A DNA stretch of 20,447 nt from a virus, in IMG/VR virus record IMGVR_UViG_3300036985_000496, positions 1-20,447 of that record; one strand, given 5' to 3'. Below are positions 4,410 through 18,637 of this stretch, one piece after another. A model generated the notes under the pieces. That model was not told the origin of the DNA and searched no databases. It was given only the letters and a program-made list of their open reading frames with translations. The position numbers were made by a program, and so were the translations under genes. The number at the start of each line of letters is the position of its first letter. The stretch's first letter is position 1.

Positions 4410-4904
4410 CTATTTTTTCTTAGTAGCGTTTCTAGCTTCTGACAACGCCATGGCGATTGCCTGTTTTGGGTTTTTACTTTCTTCTTTCGTTGAGCCGCCT
4501 TTCTTCATCATAGCTTGACCAGGAATATTAGGTTGAGCTTGAGCGATAGCGTTTAACGCGCCTTCAGGAGGTCTAACAGCCGGTCTGCGGTCTTTTGCAG
4601 CGATCATAGGCTCACCACGTTTACGCATCTGAGGTGCTTTGACAATTTGACGTTTAACCGTTTCTTCACGTTGCATTCTTGGTGTTTCAAGTGATTCATG
4701 TTTAATCATAGCTTGTTTACTAGGATATTTTTCATTAGTCGCTTTTTCAATGATCGGACCACCTTTAGCTTTCATGACTTTCCCGCCACATGAGCAAGAA
4801 CCACCTTTGGCGTATCCTTTTACCGGCGTGCTGGCGCAAGAACCGGTATAACCTTTATCAGCAGGGAATTCGAACTCTGTTACATATTTTAATGATTTGC
4901 CCAC
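4410..4904 (-). CDS. Lysine-rich protein with GGS motifs and DUF6496-like C-terminus
   Basis: 164 residues from a GTG start at 4904; an AAGGGG ribosome site lies about 9 bases upstream, and no in-frame ATG is better placed. The N-terminal quarter contains GYAKGGSCSCGGK (residues 30-42) with C37 and C39. A second KKGGST lies at 134-139. The C-terminus, NPKQAIAMALSEAR (145-158) followed by a Lys tail, matches a short motif of phage proteins grouped as DUF6496, which has no known function. The whole protein is strongly basic (many K and R), so nucleic acid or capsid-interior contact is possible. Its GYAKGGS motif recurs in the 1504-residue protein at 12574-17088. It follows the upstream stop by 4 bases. 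Function not known. Confidence 0.7.
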   Translation of the reverse strand: MGKSLKYVTEFEFPADKGYTGSCASTPVKGYAKGGSCSCGGKVMKAKGGPIIEKATNEKYPSKQAMIKHESLETPRMQREETVKRQIVKAPQMRKRGEPMIAAKDRRPAVRPPEGALNAIAQAQPNIPGQAMMKKGGSTKEESKNPKQAIAMALSEARNATKKK

Positions 4905-10023: not shown

Positions 10024-12540
10024 TTACGGATTGAAGTCAATGCCTGTCCCTGTAGACAATGACGTTTTACTGTCATGCTCCAGTTCTGCAGCGGTAATAA
10101 GTTTAGCGGTGTCATTGTCAGCCATGTTAATAGCTTCACGAGCTTGAATTTCAGCCATTGCTCTTTGGTTTTCAGCGTAAATTCTAGCTTGTTCTGATTG
10201 CATTTTGTCAGACCGTTCTTGCTGTTGTGCAACCATTTTTGATTGCTCAGATTGCGTCTGAGTTTGCATTTTTTGTTGATCAAGTTGAAGCCTACCTTGA
10301 TCAACCTGTGCTCTCTGATCCAACGCTTTCTGTTGAATCCCTGCGCTAATTTGTGCAATCTCAAGAGAATGATCAGACTGCGGAGGAGGAGGCTCTGGCA
10401 TGTACTTTTTAGCTTCTTCAGCTACCGCGTTAAGCTCTTGTCCAAAGTTACCCATTTGTTGCTCAATAAACTGTTGAACCTGTAAAAGAATCGGAACCTG
10501 TTGATCTGGTTTATCTTCTATTAAATTCTCTTTTTGAGCTTTATCCACCGCGTTATGCGACTCTGTTAAATAATAGTTGAGCAGGTGGTCACGTAAATGC
10601 ATAGCCATGGGGAACAAATATGACTGAGCAATGAACGGGTTAGAACCAAACAACGGTGATTTCAAGAACGCCATATGGGTAACAATATGCGCCACGTGAT
10701 CTTGAGACGGTAGCACATAAATAGGCGACGCCATAACTGCCGCTACGTTTTCTGAAGTAGGATCCATGTCATCTTGAGCCGGCTTCGGCTTCAACACTTC
10801 ACTGGCAGGAACTTTTAACGTTTTGAGAAACAGTTCTTCAACTTTACGCATGTCATACATTTGCGGGTAAAGTTGCGAACGTTGCATGATGGCTTGAATT
10901 TGAGCGAACCGTTGTGTTTCACTGAAAATAGCAGGATCACTTACCGGAATGATGTCCATAGGACCGTCAAAGTCAGACGGGTCAATGTCAATACCAGATA
11001 TTTGAGCTTCTATGTCTTCTGTAGTCAAATACGCGCTGTTGATTCGGTGTAAAATTTTCAAACTACGCGCCATTGAGCTGTGTAAACGCGCGTGAATTGA
11101 ATTAAACACCACCATACCTTGTTCAATCAACGCCATCGTAGTACCGACAGGTTGGTTTGGATTTTGGTCTGACAGTTTTTCAAACGAGGTCTGCACAACA
11201 CCTTTACCGGTGTCAACAAGGAAGCCAAGCAACTGCATCAAAACAGGAGAAGGACCATTAAACGGTAACGGCATAGCTAGTTTACGAACGTCATCAATCA
11301 ACGCACCGCCTTCCATCTCGACTACTTCGGTAGGTTGGACGTTTAACGTTTGACCTCCAGGACCGCCTTTAAGTTTGAGCAGAGTAGGGACGTTTTGAAT
11401 ATGTGCTGAATCAAGTAGAGCACGTAGAGCGCCGGTAGCGGCTCCAGACAAACCGCCGATCATGTGAGTCAAACCAATAGGGTAAGCACCTCGCCAAGGT
11501 ACAAAAGCAAACTCAACAATCCAGTCTAGCTCTTTCTTTTGAACGTCATCTGGTTCCCAGTTGCGGTAAAGTGCTAAACCTTTCTCAGTAGATTTATCAA
11601 CACTGAGTATGTAAGGTTCAGGACCATCATCAAAATCTAAATACGTGTAGATTTCAAATATGGTGCGCAGACCGTCTTCATTGTAACTAGTATCTTTTCT
11701 ACCTTCAATTTTATCATTAGCTTGAGACGCCCGACTAAATTCAGGATCAGTAGGCACGCCGAGATCAACATCAATATACATACCACTTTTAACACGACGA
11801 CTATACTCAAACTTAGTAATATATTGTACATGCGTTTTACGCTCTGCGGTGTAGAAATTAGTAGCTGCGAAAGGAAGGTAAATGTCATCAATCGGTACAA
11901 ACTCAGACACCGGACGTTTATGTAAAGCGTTCCACATAAACTTCAGATACTGACCGCCTCCGAGCGGTAGCTGGGTGCTAAGCTGTTCAAACTCACCACG
12001 GAACTCAACCATCTGCTCAGTAAGTTGCCAGTTCATAAAATCTGCTTTACGATCTGCTTTCTCTACTTTACTTTGATCTTTCTCACCTACGATTTTACTT
12101 TTAACCGGACCATTGGCAGGAAATATCTCTTTCATAACGCGAGCCGAAAAATCTACACACGCTTCAACAAGCATCGGATGGACGACTTTATTCGCGCCAC
12201 TGAACTGAGCACCTCCCGGAGCATCGTCACCTAAGCCAGTACGTCGGATACCTTCTTCGTATTGTTTGTCACGTTTTTCGCGTGCTTCTTTGTCGTTAGC
12301 GATCTTGTCAATCAACTCACTAATTGACATTTTCAATTCACCTTGATCCACTTCATCAATAATATTTGCGAAGTGTTCTAAATGCTTTTGCTCATCTTTT
12401 TCGTTTTCAAGACGTATGATTGCCCCACCGTCGTCAGTGTCTTCAACTTCGGTATTGTCTTCATCAAACTCGACGTCTTCACCTTCTTGTTGATCATCTT
12501 CGTTTTGATCTTCGTAATCTTCTTCTAATTGCTTCGCCAT
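10024..12540 (-). CDS. Portal protein
   Basis: 838 residues from ATG 12540. The ATG at 12543 just before it is only three bases after GAGG, so 12540 is better spaced. The N-terminus is highly acidic and likely disordered (1-65). The body has GLGDDAPGGAQFSGANKVVHPMLVEACVDF-type sequence near 105-135, QLPLGGGQYLKF, VPIDDIYLPFAA, then a long helical region with YLFPMAMHLRDHLL. This is the pattern of portal proteins of podovirus-like phages. The C-terminal ~110 residues are Gln-rich coiled coil (QQKALDQRAQVDQGRLQLDQ and on), comparable to the barrel helices of the P22 portal (725 residues), but longer here. The dodecameric ring would form the DNA entry vertex and dock terminase and the connector at 3418-4398. 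The family assignment comes from pattern, order and size. Confidence 0.82.
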   Translation of the reverse strand: MAKQLEEDYEDQNEDDQQEGEDVEFDEDNTEVEDTDDGGAIIRLENEKDEQKHLEHFANIIDEVDQGELKMSISELIDKIANDKEAREKRDKQYEEGIRRTGLGDDAPGGAQFSGANKVVHPMLVEACVDFSARVMKEIFPANGPVKSKIVGEKDQSKVEKADRKADFMNWQLTEQMVEFRGEFEQLSTQLPLGGGQYLKFMWNALHKRPVSEFVPIDDIYLPFAATNFYTAERKTHVQYITKFEYSRRVKSGMYIDVDLGVPTDPEFSRASQANDKIEGRKDTSYNEDGLRTIFEIYTYLDFDDGPEPYILSVDKSTEKGLALYRNWEPDDVQKKELDWIVEFAFVPWRGAYPIGLTHMIGGLSGAATGALRALLDSAHIQNVPTLLKLKGGPGGQTLNVQPTEVVEMEGGALIDDVRKLAMPLPFNGPSPVLMQLLGFLVDTGKGVVQTSFEKLSDQNPNQPVGTTMALIEQGMVVFNSIHARLHSSMARSLKILHRINSAYLTTEDIEAQISGIDIDPSDFDGPMDIIPVSDPAIFSETQRFAQIQAIMQRSQLYPQMYDMRKVEELFLKTLKVPASEVLKPKPAQDDMDPTSENVAAVMASPIYVLPSQDHVAHIVTHMAFLKSPLFGSNPFIAQSYLFPMAMHLRDHLLNYYLTESHNAVDKAQKENLIEDKPDQQVPILLQVQQFIEQQMGNFGQELNAVAEEAKKYMPEPPPPQSDHSLEIAQISAGIQQKALDQRAQVDQGRLQLDQQKMQTQTQSEQSKMVAQQQERSDKMQSEQARIYAENQRAMAEIQAREAINMADNDTAKLITAAELEHDSKTSLSTGTGIDFNP

Positions 12541-12573
12541 CATGTACCTCAGTTTGTTTTATTGAGCAGCTGA

Positions 12574-15500
12574 TCAAGCCGCCATTAAATTATCGTAATG
12601 CTTCATTGCGGTATGATATAAATTTTCTTGCTGAGAAGTAACCGAACCGCCTTTTGAGAACGGCATGTTGTACTCTACCTGTATTTGACGACCTTCGCTT
12701 TTATGATCAGCGGGTTCAAAATAACTTGCGTTCAAATCACCACCTCCAACTTTACCCGTGTATCCCGCAGTGTAACCAGACAAACCGTCGTTATACTTTG
12801 TGTGTAAACCTTGAAGTCCGATTGACGCCCGCCCTTCTCCTACCGGAACAGAGCCACTCAGATTACCGAGGTAAACACCTTCAGCTTCAATCGGTTTGAT
12901 CATAGCGGCGTTTAAGTTTGCACCGTTTCCTAGGTCTAACCCGTAGTCAGCTATCAAAGTGTGTAAGTCTTTATCATGTTCACGATCTCCTTTCGTTGTC
13001 GTGGTGTAATTTACACGAGCCTCACTTTTACCTATTTTCTTTGAGCCGCCTGTGTTTTCTATTACGTCATCGTAATGCTTCATGGCTTGATGATACAAAC
13101 GCAATTGATCTGGATCGTTGAACGGTAGATCACCGACGACTGAACCGCCTCCAGCGTAACCTTGACCAGATATTAATGATTTAAGTTCTTCAGGACTAGC
13201 CCAATCTCCAAATCGTTTTCTAGCTTCATCTAAATTGAAAGAGGAAGGATCAATGTTCATTTCAGTTAATTTTTCGTTTAACCTGTCAGGAGCGTTTTTT
13301 AAATCATAAACTCCTACATCTTTCAAACCTTTAGCCACGTTATTGACGTCTAATCCGGGATGAGAGCGCATGAAATCATGAACCAGGGGTAAATATTTTT
13401 CTAAAACAGGTAGGTTAGTTTTACCGAAAACTTGTGTCAAATTTTCTTGTACGCCCCCCACTTTATTTTTTAACACTTCAAATAAAGAATTGTCATAACT
13501 TAGATGCGGGTTAGAGGCGTTGTATTCAGCTGCTTCTGCGCGCAGCATAGGTAACAGCTCTTTTTGTTTTTCTGCAGGCGTGTTACTCAATAAACTTTCA
13601 TAATAGGCATGAGGTATCCAAGGTTTAGTCTCAATCGTGACGTGCGGTTCATTGGAACGGTTACGCAACGAGAATATACGAGAATTACCGCTTGACACAT
13701 CTGGACAGTAATCACCTACGCATTGGTTCATTCTATCACCTTCGTACTTTAACGCTTTACTTACAAGATCCTCGTTATATTTTCTATTCGCAAGTTCAGA
13801 CATTAATTCTGTCATTCTAAAACGAAAATCATCGCTTTCAGGGTCTAAACCTTCTGATCGAGCCGTTCTTCTTGCTGCTTTATACACATCATTTTGGTCG
13901 TCCGCATTAAGGTCATCATATTCTATTGTCTTTTTAGGGTTTTTAATTTCAAACCATGACAACTTTTTATCAGGATATTGTTTATGTTCAAAAACAGCCG
14001 GATTACGAACAGATTCTTCATACTCTTTAATTTTATTATAATTGTTCAATTTAGCTACGTGTTCAACAACTTGAGGAACATTCATTTTATACATTTTGTT
14101 CGGATCTATTTGGAGTTCAGCAGGTAAAGTTTTATCTAAAACTGCTTTATCTAATCCTGAAATCAATTTATCAAAACCTAAACTATTAGAATAATAAGAT
14201 GGAGAAAAATTATAAACTTTTGAAGAAGGGTCAAGATTATATACCCATTCGTTATCAGGTTTTATAATATCTGTTCTAGGATCACCTTTCTCTTTCTCTT
14301 TAAAAAGATAAGGTAAATTTAACGTGTCACCTACGCTTTTGTCTGACGCATTTTCCCAGTTTTTACCTAGACCGCTTTTAGCTAACCCTTCTTCCGGAAA
14401 ACCACCTTGTTTTCTAGATCTGTTTATACCCCTCATTTCCCATTTAGGAGTAGTTGTAGGAGTATAATGTATAGGATTGTAATCTTTTAAAAACATTATT
14501 TCTTTTTCGATATCACTTATATCTCTATTCGCTGTTCTTATACGAGCTTCTCTCCACGCTTCAGGGTTATCCACTCCGGTAGGAACGTCTTCTATTTCAT
14601 ATTTATTTAAAAGTTTTGACAACCCTGTTAATTTTTTCTTTTTATCAGCTAGTAAAGTTTTCTTTTTAGCTGGCCATTTTTCAGCAATCGCTAATACTGG
14701 ATCTTCAGGTGTTCCTAAATCATTTTTAACATAAGCTGTTAATTTTTTATTAATCCAATCACGAGGAAAGTTTTCTGATAAAATCAAATTGCTTAGTCCT
14801 TTTTCAAAATCCATATCTTTTTGAAGCCAGTTACCGCCTTTAGGTTTAACAGCCATACCTAACGTACCACCAGCAGACGTCGGAGCAAACGGCAACCCAC
14901 CGGTCTGCGCTAGACCGGCTAAATCAAAAGCAGCTTGAGATTGCTCATCTATTGACGGGGCAACACCAATTGGAAATGCACTTGATTCATCTAATATTTC
15001 TCGTGGTCTACCGCCAGCAGTGTCGATGCTACGCATCAAATAATCTTTTGCGCGTTTTGATGCTTCTTGCGGATGCAAAAGTGTCGACGCGATGATTGAG
15101 TCTTCATCACCAAAGTTTTGCTTCGCACTCACGTCATCAAAGTGCGCCATCGCTCGGCGGTACAAACGCTCATGCGCAGGATCTTCAAACTCTGATATTG
15201 AGCCGCCTCCAGCGTAATTATGAGGAGCGTCTATTGATGCAACGATGTCATCTACTTTCATAGGGTCGTACATCGTTGGTGGTGTACCAACTAATCCACC
15301 GTTGGCATAACCTTCAGAAGTTATATTTCTACCAGTCGTAGAAAGTTCACGACGTAACGCATCCAGTTCATCATCAGATACAAATTTACCGTATTTACTC
15401 ACTGCCGCGTTATATAAATCAGGAGACATGTATCGTCTATGTTCATCCAGATCTAGCAGTGCGGTGTTTCCAAAATCTTTAACGCGTTCCCAATCTTTTG

Positions 15501-17088
15501 AACGCACAAAGTCTTGCACGGACGGTAAGTATTTATCAATAGGAGCCTCATTTGCTTTACCTTTTATTTGTTTAATATAGTCTGCCCCAGTGTCCATATT
15601 TTTTCTAGTTTCAATCGTAACATGCGGCTCACCGCGACGGTCACGCAATGAATAGACTTTGTTTACCCCATGCGCTACATCATCACAATACTCACCAACA
15701 CAAGTTCCCATCGTGTCACCTTCAAACTTCAAGGCATCGCCGAGAGCAGTGTAATCTTCTCCTGGTGTGAAGTCGTTAGAAACGCCGGGCATACGTATTT
15801 CCATCCAAGATAACCCTCTATCGGGATAGTCTTTATGCATAAATGTTGCGCGGTTGCGCCCTTCTTTTAGTTTTTCAGCTGCGTCCCACGCGTTAATCTT
15901 TGCGACATATTCAACCGCGTGAGGAATTGTCACGCGAGCGAGTTTATCAGGAGCAATACGTAGTTCGTCAGGTAACTCCGTATCTGAAATTGCTCTATTT
16001 AAACCTTCAGTTAATTTATCTAAACCAGTGTTTTTTAAAACATCAATTCTAGCCTGATAAACAGCTGTATCTGGATCAATTTTAGTTAACCACGGATTAT
16101 TAAACAGTGCGCGTTCTCGCCTTGAATCATCGTGAGCAACGCGCGATGATTCAGGTCTAATCTTACGCTCTAATGTTAACTCGTCATCCACCGCACCCTT
16201 CAAGGGTAAGAAAGAGCTAGCGGGTTTGGTAATAATGTTATAATCAGAAACATCTTCCCAACGTTTACCTAACTCAGATTTAGCGAACCCTTCTTCAGGA
16301 TAACCGGACTCTTTCCTATTCATACGAGTGTTTCGGGTGTGCCAACTCATTGATGCGGGTTTTACGTCGTAATGAAGAGGGTTGTAGTTTTCAAACCCTG
16401 CTATTTTTGCTTGAATGTCGTTTATTTCACGTTGTTTATTAGCAATGTTATTTGTTTTAATGTTGGGAGGCAGCTCAACATTTTGTTCATAACGCGCTAT
16501 CATTTCTTGTAGTTTCGGAATTTTTGTTTGTTGCTCATTGATAAGCGCATCACGTTTGGCTGGCCAGTTTTCTGCGACAGCTCGGATAGGATCTTCAGGC
16601 GTCGCCATTTCATTTTTAACGTAGTGTGCTAATTTTTGGCGGAGCCACTCACGAGGAAAGTTTTCATGTAGGTCATCTTCAAGTCCTTTAAAATGAATAA
16701 GGCTGCTCGGATCGTTAAATACCCAATTACCCCCTTTCGGTTTTATAACCATCCCCACGTTACCGGCAACTGCGTTACGTGCGGTGCTTTCAGCAGGACC
16801 AGCAAACGTTATCGCCGTATCAGCAAGTGATTGAGCACGCCCCCGTTTAAACTGCGGTAAACGACTTGTCTCTGGTATTTGCATTGGGGCATTACCGTAT
16901 GACCAGTTCTCAATCTCCTCTGGTGAGTTACCGAGGAACATGTCACCAACGCCTGTACCGCCTGCTAACGGAACCCAATTAGGTATTGAGTATTGATTAC
17001 CGGCGTTACGGGTGGAGCTAAGCAGTTCAGCAAGTTTAGCTAAATTAGCCTGTTGGTCCAGTGCTCTCATCTGTTGGTTATACGGCAT
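12574..17088 (-). CDS. Giant protein with two PcfJ-like modules (polyvalent-type), between terminase and portal
   Basis: 1504 residues, ATG 17088, overlapping the terminase stop by 11 bases. Two related modules are seen: residues 111-535 and 743-1245. Each begins xxKPKGGNW, continues ENFPR(E/D)W, KLxxYVKN and TPEDPxxAxAExWPAK, and reaches a cysteine motif (CVGEYC at 463-468, CVGDYC at 1123-1128) with SLRxR, EPHVTIET and, in the first copy, QIKGKAN. That motif matches PcfJ-like domains of phage and plasmid 'polyvalent' proteins; their activity is not known to me. Short units, (Y/F)x(G/K)GGS followed by LYxxAMxHxDD/N, occur at 624-653, 1311-1342 and 1478-1500, suggesting linkers. Residues 1357-1476 look like amphipathic beta strands. 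Possible roles are a virion-carried ejected protein or an early host-takeover factor. The position inside the packaging operon is odd and suggests insertion. Confidence 0.75.
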   Translation of the reverse strand: MPYNQQMRALDQQANLAKLAELLSSTRNAGNQYSIPNWVPLAGGTGVGDMFLGNSPEEIENWSYGNAPMQIPETSRLPQFKRGRAQSLADTAITFAGPAESTARNAVAGNVGMVIKPKGGNWVFNDPSSLIHFKGLEDDLHENFPREWLRQKLAHYVKNEMATPEDPIRAVAENWPAKRDALINEQQTKIPKLQEMIARYEQNVELPPNIKTNNIANKQREINDIQAKIAGFENYNPLHYDVKPASMSWHTRNTRMNRKESGYPEEGFAKSELGKRWEDVSDYNIITKPASSFLPLKGAVDDELTLERKIRPESSRVAHDDSRRERALFNNPWLTKIDPDTAVYQARIDVLKNTGLDKLTEGLNRAISDTELPDELRIAPDKLARVTIPHAVEYVAKINAWDAAEKLKEGRNRATFMHKDYPDRGLSWMEIRMPGVSNDFTPGEDYTALGDALKFEGDTMGTCVGEYCDDVAHGVNKVYSLRDRRGEPHVTIETRKNMDTGADYIKQIKGKANEAPIDKYLPSVQDFVRSKDWERVKDFGNTALLDLDEHRRYMSPDLYNAAVSKYGKFVSDDELDALRRELSTTGRNITSEGYANGGLVGTPPTMYDPMKVDDIVASIDAPHNYAGGGSISEFEDPAHERLYRRAMAHFDDVSAKQNFGDEDSIIASTLLHPQEASKRAKDYLMRSIDTAGGRPREILDESSAFPIGVAPSIDEQSQAAFDLAGLAQTGGLPFAPTSAGGTLGMAVKPKGGNWLQKDMDFEKGLSNLILSENFPRDWINKKLTAYVKNDLGTPEDPVLAIAEKWPAKKKTLLADKKKKLTGLSKLLNKYEIEDVPTGVDNPEAWREARIRTANRDISDIEKEIMFLKDYNPIHYTPTTTPKWEMRGINRSRKQGGFPEEGLAKSGLGKNWENASDKSVGDTLNLPYLFKEKEKGDPRTDIIKPDNEWVYNLDPSSKVYNFSPSYYSNSLGFDKLISGLDKAVLDKTLPAELQIDPNKMYKMNVPQVVEHVAKLNNYNKIKEYEESVRNPAVFEHKQYPDKKLSWFEIKNPKKTIEYDDLNADDQNDVYKAARRTARSEGLDPESDDFRFRMTELMSELANRKYNEDLVSKALKYEGDRMNQCVGDYCPDVSSGNSRIFSLRNRSNEPHVTIETKPWIPHAYYESLLSNTPAEKQKELLPMLRAEAAEYNASNPHLSYDNSLFEVLKNKVGGVQENLTQVFGKTNLPVLEKYLPLVHDFMRSHPGLDVNNVAKGLKDVGVYDLKNAPDRLNEKLTEMNIDPSSFNLDEARKRFGDWASPEELKSLISGQGYAGGGSVVGDLPFNDPDQLRLYHQAMKHYDDVIENTGGSKKIGKSEARVNYTTTTKGDREHDKDLHTLIADYGLDLGNGANLNAAMIKPIEAEGVYLGNLSGSVPVGEGRASIGLQGLHTKYNDGLSGYTAGYTGKVGGGDLNASYFEPADHKSEGRQIQVEYNMPFSKGGSVTSQQENLYHTAMKHYDNLMAA
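13354..14862 (-). repeat. Second PcfJ-like module (diverged, AT-rich copy)
   Basis: Encodes residues 743-1245 of the giant protein. It aligns by motif order with the module at 15484-16758 (KPKGGNW, NFPRDW, TPEDP, NPIHY, FPEEG, CVGDYC, EPHVTIET, YLP.V.DFMRS) but has a longer segment before the Cys motif and a ~70-residue insertion after it. The middle of this copy is visibly more AT-rich than the first. Confidence 0.8.
15484..16758 (-). repeat. First PcfJ-like module
   Basis: Encodes residues 111-535 of the giant protein. Shared motifs with the second module, in the same order: KPKGGNW, NFPREW, TPEDP, WPAKRD, NPLHY, YPEEGFAKSELGK, LDKLTEGL, CVGEYC, SLRDR, PHVTIET, YLPSVQDFVRS. The two copies are alike as protein but not as DNA, so the duplication is old or the copies came in separately. 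Confidence 0.8.
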
Positions 17089-18637
17089 ATGGGTTTACCC
17101 TCTCACGTGGTTTAACACGAGGTTCATCAACGTCACGAGCACGGGGTAACTCAAACCAGTTGTCATTCTTGAGGTAGATGATTGCCTGTGTGAAAGTGTC
17201 TACGTAATCGTCATGCTCTGCGACGGGAAACTTCGCTAATTGTTTAATGAATGCTGTTGCCCAACTCACAGCATGAGTAGGGTTTTTCTTTGACTCAGGA
17301 ATCCAAACTAATCCAAGCTCTAACGTCGGAGAGGCTTGATGTGCGCGTGAAATCTTATCAGCGTGACCTGGATTATAACCGACCGCCGGAACTTTCGCAA
17401 GGCGTAAATCTTGCAGCAGTGATTGACCACTGGCTTTCGCTTCAACTAAAATACGGTCTGGACGTCTTGCACGTGAGTATGGCGAGTCTTTCGTCATCCC
17501 CCCGTACTCAACAGTCCAATCTTTCACTGCTCTCGCTCTTAAAGCTGGATAGCTCAAATGTTCATCCCATGCGTCAATCAACATGACGTTGCGCTCACCT
17601 TCGTGCGTAAAGACTGCCCACACCGTGCATGCGGTAGGGTCTCCTGTGGTTTTTTCCGTGAACGCACAGTCGTAAGATTGTAAAATGTATTCGAACGGAG
17701 GCAGACCTTGATCAGCTGGCCAAAGATTGAAGTATTTCGTCTTGAGGATACCGCCTTGAGCAGGAGCGGGTTCTTGCTGAAGCTGTCCGGCTGTTCCGTA
17801 CTCACCTAGAAGTTGCTTGAGGTTAATGATCTCCTTCTCACCAAACCGATCAGGGCAGATTAGCTCTCCTTTTTTCTTGCGCGGGTCGTACTCACCTAAT
17901 ACAGTTTTACGACGTTTACCGTCGTACTCAGCAGGGATACAAATATGTTCCCAACCTTTAATGTCTTCAATGATATGACCGCTGATGTCGCGTTCGTGTA
18001 ACCGCTGCATGACCGTGACCATAGCATCTTTTTTAGGGTTGTTCAGACGTGTTGACCAGACCATGTCAAACCATTCAAGATCAGATTCTCTCATCGCTTC
18101 AGATTGAGCCGCTTGAGCGCCGTGAGGATCGTCAAGTATCAGACGTGAACCGCCTTCACCGGTCGCAGTACCTCCGACTGAGGTCGCAATCCGGTATCCG
18201 GTTTTGTCGTTTTCAAATCGTTGTTTTGCATTCTGATCACCCGCAAAGGCAAACATATGCCCCCAACGTTTTTGGTACCACGGTGATTGAAGCAGCCGGC
18301 GTGTCTTTAAGTTGTCACGAGTTGACAGACCGCCGGAGTAAGACGCACAAAGAAACTTCTGCGCAGGGTCGGTGATCCACTCCCAAGCTGGCCACATGAC
18401 GCTGACGATAGTCGACTTTGAATGACGAGGAGGTATGTTAATGAGCAGGCGTTGGATGTCACCGGAGCTGACTGCTTCAAGATGCTCACAGATCTCTTCA
18501 ATGTGCCAAGAAGCAATGAAAGGGATTCCTGGTTCAACAACATGCCAACTCTGTTTCACGAACTCGTAAAGACAAGCTGAGGCAGATCTACGCGACTGCT
18601 CTTCCTCTACTTGCTGACGCATCTCAACGACGTTCAT
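17078..18637 (-). CDS. terL: Terminase large subunit (ATPase and nuclease)
   Basis: 519 residues; ATG 18637 overlaps the small-subunit stop by one base (TAATG). Motifs seen: Walker A-type PPRHSKST at 69-76, Walker B LILDD at 166-170, and a coupling segment TVMQRLHERD at 208-217. In the C-terminal RNase H-like nuclease, acidic residues lie in SYDCAFTE (D323), ILVEAKASG (E399) and EHDDYVDTFTQA (D476, D477, D480). The length fits headful-type terminases (P22 gp2 is 499). The protein would dock on the portal, pump DNA into the head with ATP and cut it. The next gene (17088) overlaps its last bases. The call is firm; which cutting mode is used is inferred. Confidence 0.96.
   Translation of the reverse strand: MNVVEMRQQVEEEQSRRSASACLYEFVKQSWHVVEPGIPFIASWHIEEICEHLEAVSSGDIQRLLINIPPRHSKSTIVSVMWPAWEWITDPAQKFLCASYSGGLSTRDNLKTRRLLQSPWYQKRWGHMFAFAGDQNAKQRFENDKTGYRIATSVGGTATGEGGSRLILDDPHGAQAAQSEAMRESDLEWFDMVWSTRLNNPKKDAMVTVMQRLHERDISGHIIEDIKGWEHICIPAEYDGKRRKTVLGEYDPRKKKGELICPDRFGEKEIINLKQLLGEYGTAGQLQQEPAPAQGGILKTKYFNLWPADQGLPPFEYILQSYDCAFTEKTTGDPTACTVWAVFTHEGERNVMLIDAWDEHLSYPALRARAVKDWTVEYGGMTKDSPYSRARRPDRILVEAKASGQSLLQDLRLAKVPAVGYNPGHADKISRAHQASPTLELGLVWIPESKKNPTHAVSWATAFIKQLAKFPVAEHDDYVDTFTQAIIYLKNDNWFELPRARDVDEPRVKPRERVNPYAV

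Follow-up and report, generated by a model that had tools for sequence, protein, structure and literature searches.

In the searched passages of Iyer et al. (2017, PMC5512222), the term polyvalent proteins covers large chains of many domains, encoded by portal-terminase phages and by conjugative elements, that are likely packaged and injected, with the ADP-ribosyltransferase (ART) as their commonest modifying enzyme and lysozymes as frequent components. Genes for phage ARTs often neighbour those for terminase and portal, and head packaging of these ARTs is probable (PMC9503650). The main text of PMC5512222 does not mention PcfJ, and our literature searches found neither a paper on PcfJ-like phage proteins nor a reported activity for the PcfJ family. 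Here we analyse a 1504-aa protein with two PcfJ-type modules encoded on a 20.4-kb piece of an IMG/VR virus record (the window, 20,447 nucleotides), and consider how the locus that carries it compares with these systems.

As the preliminary description had claimed, a 4.5 kb gene separates the large terminase gene (TerL) from the portal gene in the window. It is a single ORF with an ATG start and no internal stop (Table 1). The TerL stop and this ORF overlap by 11 nt (ATGCCGTATAA), and the portal ATG lies ~30 nt past the ORF's own stop, preceded by a GAGG ribosome-binding site. The other flanking genes encode an Sf6-type small terminase, GroES-like and scaffold-like proteins (both assigned by comparison with annotated relatives), the MCP and an SU10-type adaptor. 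Near the gene, promoters and terminators were no more frequent than in shuffled sequences, searches of the window for RNA families and tRNAs found none, and NCBIfam and PADLOC returned no match for the 1504-aa protein. Elsewhere in the window, an ORF cut by its end (2-991) contains near-identical repeats (VLTVNAV.S.Y.SVTTISATQALVTY.GTS.YLQTCVLNISGSTV) and probably encodes a repeat-built fibre protein.

Table 1. Coordinates of the 1504-aa protein gene, its parts and its two flanking genes in the window.
Feature	Position	Strand	Basis
Whole gene of the 1504-aa modular protein, occupying the TerL-portal interval	12574..17088	-	single ORF
N-terminal segment, residues 1-107	16768..17088	-	predicted disordered; BLAST segments in relatives
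PcfJ-type module 1, residues 108-578	15355..16767	-	Pfam, long-module conservation, AlphaFold2 model, fold matches
CVGEYC motif, module 1, residues 463-468	15685..15702	-	C468 kept in 37/41 relatives
PHVTIET motif, module 1, residues 488-494	15607..15627	-	P488, H489 invariant 41/41
GG tag 1, residues 594-624 (YANGGLVGTPPTMYDPMKVDDIVASIDAPHN)	15217..15309	-	motif scan; amino acid versus third-position identity
GG tag 2, residues 625-652 (YAGGGSISEFEDPAHERLYRRAMAHFDD)	15133..15216	-	motif scan
Pre-module 2 segment, residues 657-739	14872..15120	-	BLAST segments in relatives
PcfJ-type module 2, residues 740-1305	13174..14871	-	Pfam, long-module conservation, tree
CVGDYC motif, module 2	13705..13722	-	motif scan
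PHVTIET motif, module 2	13627..13647	-	motif scan
GG tag 3, residues 1311-1341 (YAGGGSVVGDLPFNDPDQLRLYHQAMKHYDD)	13066..13158	-	motif scan
Beta-meander domain, residues 1343-1474, nine predicted strands	12667..13062	-	structure model; slot-confined
C-terminal GG tag 4, residues 1477-1504 (FSKGGSVTSQQENLYHTAMKHYDNLMAA)	12577..12660	-	motif scan
TerL (upstream flank of the slot)	17078..18637	-	phrog_38, E 6e-89
Portal protein (downstream flank of the slot)	10024..12543	-	phrog_1216, E 2e-13

Relatives gathered by searching with the 1504-aa protein, the portal and TerL yielded 76 distinct TerL-portal intervals, and the phages that share this slot are uncultured and mostly from lake water. The intervals range from 1.5 to 8.5 kb with an SD of 1573, compared with SDs of 140 for the portal-MCP and 7 for the scaffold-MCP spacing on the same contigs. 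Each holds one or two large ORFs, mostly of 448-2207 aa, which stay open up to the largest of these lengths without decay. Between the window and its relative L007, TerL is 96% and the portal 95% identical, while the PcfJ modules share ~41-48% and the C-terminal region 82%. The TerL of another relative, L177, is 85% identical to that of the window; its 54.6-kb contig was assigned to the bin of an uncultured Methylomonas MAG, which gives a weak hint of the host.

The cultured outgroup phages Roseobacter CRP-902, Planktothrix Pag-Yong1 and Alcaligenes QDWS535 have TerL next to portal or almost so, and in Caulobacter RW a tRNA-Val gene alone separates the two genes. Inserted genes are present between the two in Pelagibacter phages HTVC027P and HTVC023P, in phage 023Pt_psg01, in MW202545 and in DSL-LC04. 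Because the outgroups have the genes adjacent and other phages carry inserts, we regard the TerL-portal gap as a recurrent insertion point. The preliminary remark that terminase and portal are usually adjacent thus holds for several cultured relatives, but the insertion in the window is not unique and recurs as a slot. The slot proteins of HTVC027P, HTVC023P, 023Pt and MW202545 were considered as members of the same family and set aside, since they show no detectable homology and have only the slot and sparse GG motifs in common with it.

Several further observations concern the terminase end of these loci. In Caulobacter phage RW (L169:2445-5247) the annotation splits the large terminase into two parts that flank a SAM-dependent methyltransferase gene. 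In IMGVR_UViG_3300010158_001721 (L006:2433-3518) TerL carries a ~1.1 kb in-frame insertion with intein hallmarks (a junction Cys, an HDHPVYV block and the ending ...NYFANGLLLHN|C), which in a different frame encodes an HNH-nuclease-like protein; the TerL of the window is free of an insertion of this type. Roseobacter phage CRP-902, which has no TerL-portal insert, encodes a protein (gp72, L171:7550-8860) with weak homology (22-23% identity, E 1e-6) to parts of the slot proteins L138_2, L141_2 and L146_2, and some slot modules therefore reside elsewhere in relatives.

The slot proteins are mosaics of about 450-2200 aa. A long PcfJ module is found in 53 of the 88 slot ORFs and in 50 of the 76 intervals, the two counts differing because three intervals (L138, L141 and L146) hold two PcfJ genes side by side. 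Among 43 representatives, Pfam identified PcfJ in 15, ART-PolyVal in 12, DUF7178 in four, Phage_lysozyme2 in three, and Amidase_2 and GNAT in one each. The C-terminal beta domain of the window protein recurs in slot proteins both with and without PcfJ. The segments that precede the modules are likewise reused: residues 7-122 of the window protein are ~60% identical to pre-modules in L018_2, L106_2, L107_1, L108_1, L112_1 and L122_2, with ART-bearing slot proteins among the relatives that carry this segment, and the pre-module 2 segment is 55-70% identical to residues 21-119 of L112_1, L135_1 and L006_2.

Pfam family PF14284 (PcfJ) matches the window protein twice, at 50.4 bits for the whole protein and at 28.8 and 28.2 bits for the copies singly, against a cut-off of 25 bits; each match spans only ~65 residues of a module that is conserved over ~470-570 aa among relatives. 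Aligned with each other by BLASTP, the two halves are homologous over nearly the whole module (275 bits, E 1e-85, 32% identity). The motifs CVGxYC (residues 463 and 1123), SLRxR (480 and 1140) and PHVTIET (488 and 1148) each occur exactly twice in the protein, in agreement with the earlier account of two modules that each bear all three. Across 41 sequences, the residues that are invariant or nearly so are a KPKGGNW stretch together with C468 (37 sequences), P488 and H489 (all 41), K509 (39) and N513 (40), while the first Cys of CVGxYC is kept in 23 and is not conserved family-wide.

An AlphaFold2 model of residues 1-655, based on the 41-sequence alignment, has a mean pLDDT of 75, with a core (114-588) mostly above 90 and residues 1-113 mostly under 50. 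A Foldseek search of BFVD with the module 1 fold gave 13 matches at E-values up to 0.001, the best down to 4e-31; most of the named ones are PcfJ-like, among them a protein of Enterococcus phage EFDG1. The PcfJ-like identity put forward from the motifs is thus supported both by Pfam and by a predicted fold that matches PcfJ-like proteins of other phages, the structure prediction having been proposed at the outset as a check. Matches of module 1 to the PDB were mostly to GNATs and weak (E at least 0.03, TM up to 0.42), and the strand-helix order of the PcfJ core resembles that of GNAT. A candidate acetyl-CoA pyrophosphate loop, QIKGKA (consensus Q/RxxGxG/A), is not kept in 15 of the 41 relatives. 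Because the matches are weak and this cofactor loop is not conserved, we do not claim that the PcfJ core is a GNAT enzyme and keep the resemblance only as a lead. A sequence search of the PDB found no solved relatives of the PcfJ module and none of the beta domain.

The window protein is the sole double-PcfJ chain among the 76 intervals, and a tree of 41 modules (a quick search, with some long branches) bears on how it arose. Module 2 clusters with single modules from L003, L007 and L090 (SH-aLRT 99), whose TerL proteins are 96-97% identical to that of the window, and module 1 falls with the modules of the first genes in L018, L106 and L006 and with L112 and L135 (93). A topology in which the two window modules are forced to be sisters is rejected (p-AU 0.011), and the tree and this test together rule out a recent tandem duplication in place. 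The preliminary description had called the modules a tandem duplicate; they are indeed homologous, but each is nearer to single modules elsewhere than to the other. In the slots of L006, L018, L106 and L122 there are two genes, the first of which ends ...DAPHNY-stop, exactly where the window protein continues into GG tag 2. The window gene is therefore best read, from these sequence comparisons, as a fusion or mosaic of divergent PcfJ modules.

The non-duplicated C-terminal beta domain and the four short GG tags were absent from the preliminary description. In the tags, a [YF]AxGG[SL]V core precedes a short predicted helix (YDPxxVDxI... or LYxxAMxHYDD...). The motif occurs 190 times in 52 proteins, compared with 6.7 times in shuffled sequences; it marks module borders, and 41 of the 52 proteins terminate with one. 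Over the ~25 residues of tag 1 that were compared at the codon level, six of the seven relatives that carry it have 100% amino acid identity and third codon positions that are 48-68% identical, and the seventh has 92% and 28%, respectively. Since the amino acids are identical while the third positions have diverged, the tag 1 peptide itself is under selection, and the shared tags are therefore not simply the result of recent DNA exchange. GGSV-xxLxxKYAxGG motifs are also present in large late-cluster proteins that are probable ejection or tail gene products (L160:12483-14918 and L163:1-1405), hinting that these and the slot proteins may share a docking peptide. A small basic protein encoded between MCP and adaptor in the window (4410-4904), like its homologues in G001, G007 and G008, bears AKGG-type motifs as in slot proteins. 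We suggest that the GG tags are a candidate phage cargo-addressing signal; they could also be simple linkers.

The beta domain is modelled as a nine-strand meander with a mean pLDDT of 67.5. Its top 50 Foldseek matches in the PDB are almost all outer-membrane beta-barrels, with a best E-value of 0.01, none below 0.001, and TM up to 0.49, so that the model weakly resembles such barrels. The alternation of residues along its strands exceeds that of shuffled sequences (Z 4.8), as can also be the case in soluble beta proteins. All 34 loci that encode the domain lie inside the TerL-portal slot, as judged from a downstream portal gene in 32 and an upstream TerL gene in two. Among cultured phages the only match was to an 'internal virion protein' of the Vibrio ICP2 group, which is not significant (E 0.3-0.6).

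We favour, with moderate confidence, a model in which the slot is occupied by a hypervariable cargo gene of this phage clade, whose product is a polyvalent protein with exchangeable payloads, made late and probably packaged in the virion and ejected. The TerL overlap and the short distance to portal suggest that the gene would be translated late together with the packaging genes; the published HTVC027P transcriptome text does not report on slot genes. The protein would then most likely enter the particle, or bind to the portal or core, and leave with the DNA. The YAxGGxV-helix tags would act as shared docking or hinge elements between interchangeable payloads, among which the lysozyme, the amidase and possibly the beta domain would target the host envelope and the ART, GNAT and PcfJ domains would target host molecules. 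The window's version, with two divergent PcfJ modules and a beta domain, would be a mosaic that joins related modules. Two points weigh against the model: the window's own protein has no ART, peptidase or lysozyme domain, and phages with TerL next to portal show that the basic virion can do without the slot gene. The original proposal of an ejected virion effector has strong context in the ART-PolyVal, lysozyme and amidase domains of the same slot, from which we infer ejection, and the GG motif in large proteins of the likely ejection or tail cluster points the same way. For the other role then proposed, a DNA-processing factor, we found nothing specific. A bolder form of the cargo model, speculative and in our judgment improbable, is that the portable YAxGGxV-helix directs whatever domain is joined to it into the particle, to be ejected, so that payloads such as PcfJ, ART and cell-wall hydrolases can be swapped freely, and that one payload, a small beta-barrel, forms an entry pore in the host outer membrane.

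The gene's position and its translational coupling with TerL indicate only late synthesis, and fit equally well a late intracellular factor of the producing cell that is not carried by the virion, such as a packaging aid or an agent of host shut-off, superinfection exclusion or rival-phage exclusion. PcfJ is named after a conjugative-plasmid protein, and ARTs are also known as intracellular toxins. However, the lysozyme and amidase payloads of the slot are more natural for an entry protein, and both the portal-side position and the GG motifs common to the likely ejection cluster favour a virion role, so an intracellular factor seems possible but unlikely. The same lysozyme and amidase domains, taken with the outer-membrane barrel matches and strand alternation of the beta domain, could instead indicate a structural ejection conduit, mainly a core or ejection protein comparable to T7 gp14-gp16 that builds a channel through the envelope; the beta domain would then be its outer-membrane pore, and PcfJ and ART would be decorations. 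The modest confidence and E-values of the beta model and the alternation seen in soluble proteins argue against this, as does the presence of the domain in only a minority of slots; moreover, ejection proteins already seem to be encoded by another cluster of large late genes. Because some relatives have no slot protein, it cannot be an essential conduit, and we consider a conduit of any kind quite unlikely.

The extreme sequence variation beside conserved structural genes might suggest a surface or receptor-related protein that varies with host range, but the payloads are enzymatic (ART, GNAT and lysozyme), there is no tail-fibre homology and the location is away from the tail-fibre genes, which makes this reading very hard to sustain. 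Equally improbable is that the slot has no organised function and is a permissive hotspot accreting unrelated genes and fusions, the double PcfJ arising by chance. Such a hotspot would account for the slot being empty, or holding only a tRNA, in some cultured relatives and for the lack of detectable homology of the HTVC027P and HTVC023P proteins. Long frames without decay, purifying selection on the tags at the peptide level, the reuse of the same module families across dozens of phages and the confinement of the beta domain to the slot all speak against it.

If the cargo model is correct, the TerL-portal interval is an easily recognisable site at which phages trade probable injected effectors, in the way that polymorphic toxins swap their tips, and such intervals could be a source of new anti-host or anti-defence enzymes. 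The recurring GG tag would then be a concrete candidate for a cargo-addressing signal in phages. The invariant PcfJ residues provide a starting point for studying a family with no activity reported in the papers searched. In those papers we found no description of a fixed hypervariable TerL-portal slot, a regular tag, PcfJ as a main payload or the beta domain.

Among known systems, the PcfJ family itself (PF14284) is recognised in the window protein by two matches above the cut-off, the conserved C, PH and K..N core residues and the predicted fold; the difference is that here the core ends a 470-570 aa module that starts with KPKGGNW, and that two modules share one chain. A counterpart at the locus is WJZ48068 of phage DSL-LC04 (OR003939, proposed 'Dishuiviridae', PMC10611076), a PcfJ-like gene between TerL and portal with the same downstream order of GroES-like gene, scaffold and MCP. 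In contrast to the window protein, it has one module in 825 aa, ~25% identity, and GG motifs that are N-terminal rather than C-terminal. T4 Alt, described in the searched part of PMC5512222 as an ADP-ribosyltransferase carried in the head and injected, is alike only in the way it would work; it has no sequence relation to the window protein, and the ART-PolyVal domains of the relatives belong to a different ART group.

The slot family fits the description of polyvalent proteins in the searched passages of PMC5512222, namely large multidomain chains in terminase-portal phages with predicted packaging and injection, and it contains ART-PolyVal, lysozyme and GNAT domains. The window chain combines at least two distinct domains (two PcfJ modules and the beta domain) and is encoded among the virion genes of a terminase-portal phage. 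Of the domains described for polyvalent proteins (ART, peptidase, lysozyme and LPD), its own chain has none, whereas slot proteins of relatives do carry such domains. It is the slot family, rather than the window chain alone, that qualifies as polyvalent proteins. The family goes beyond what those same passages of PMC5512222 describe in three features that were not met there: the TerL-portal slot is fixed, a YAxGGxV-helix delimiter recurs regularly, and a beta-meander domain is present.
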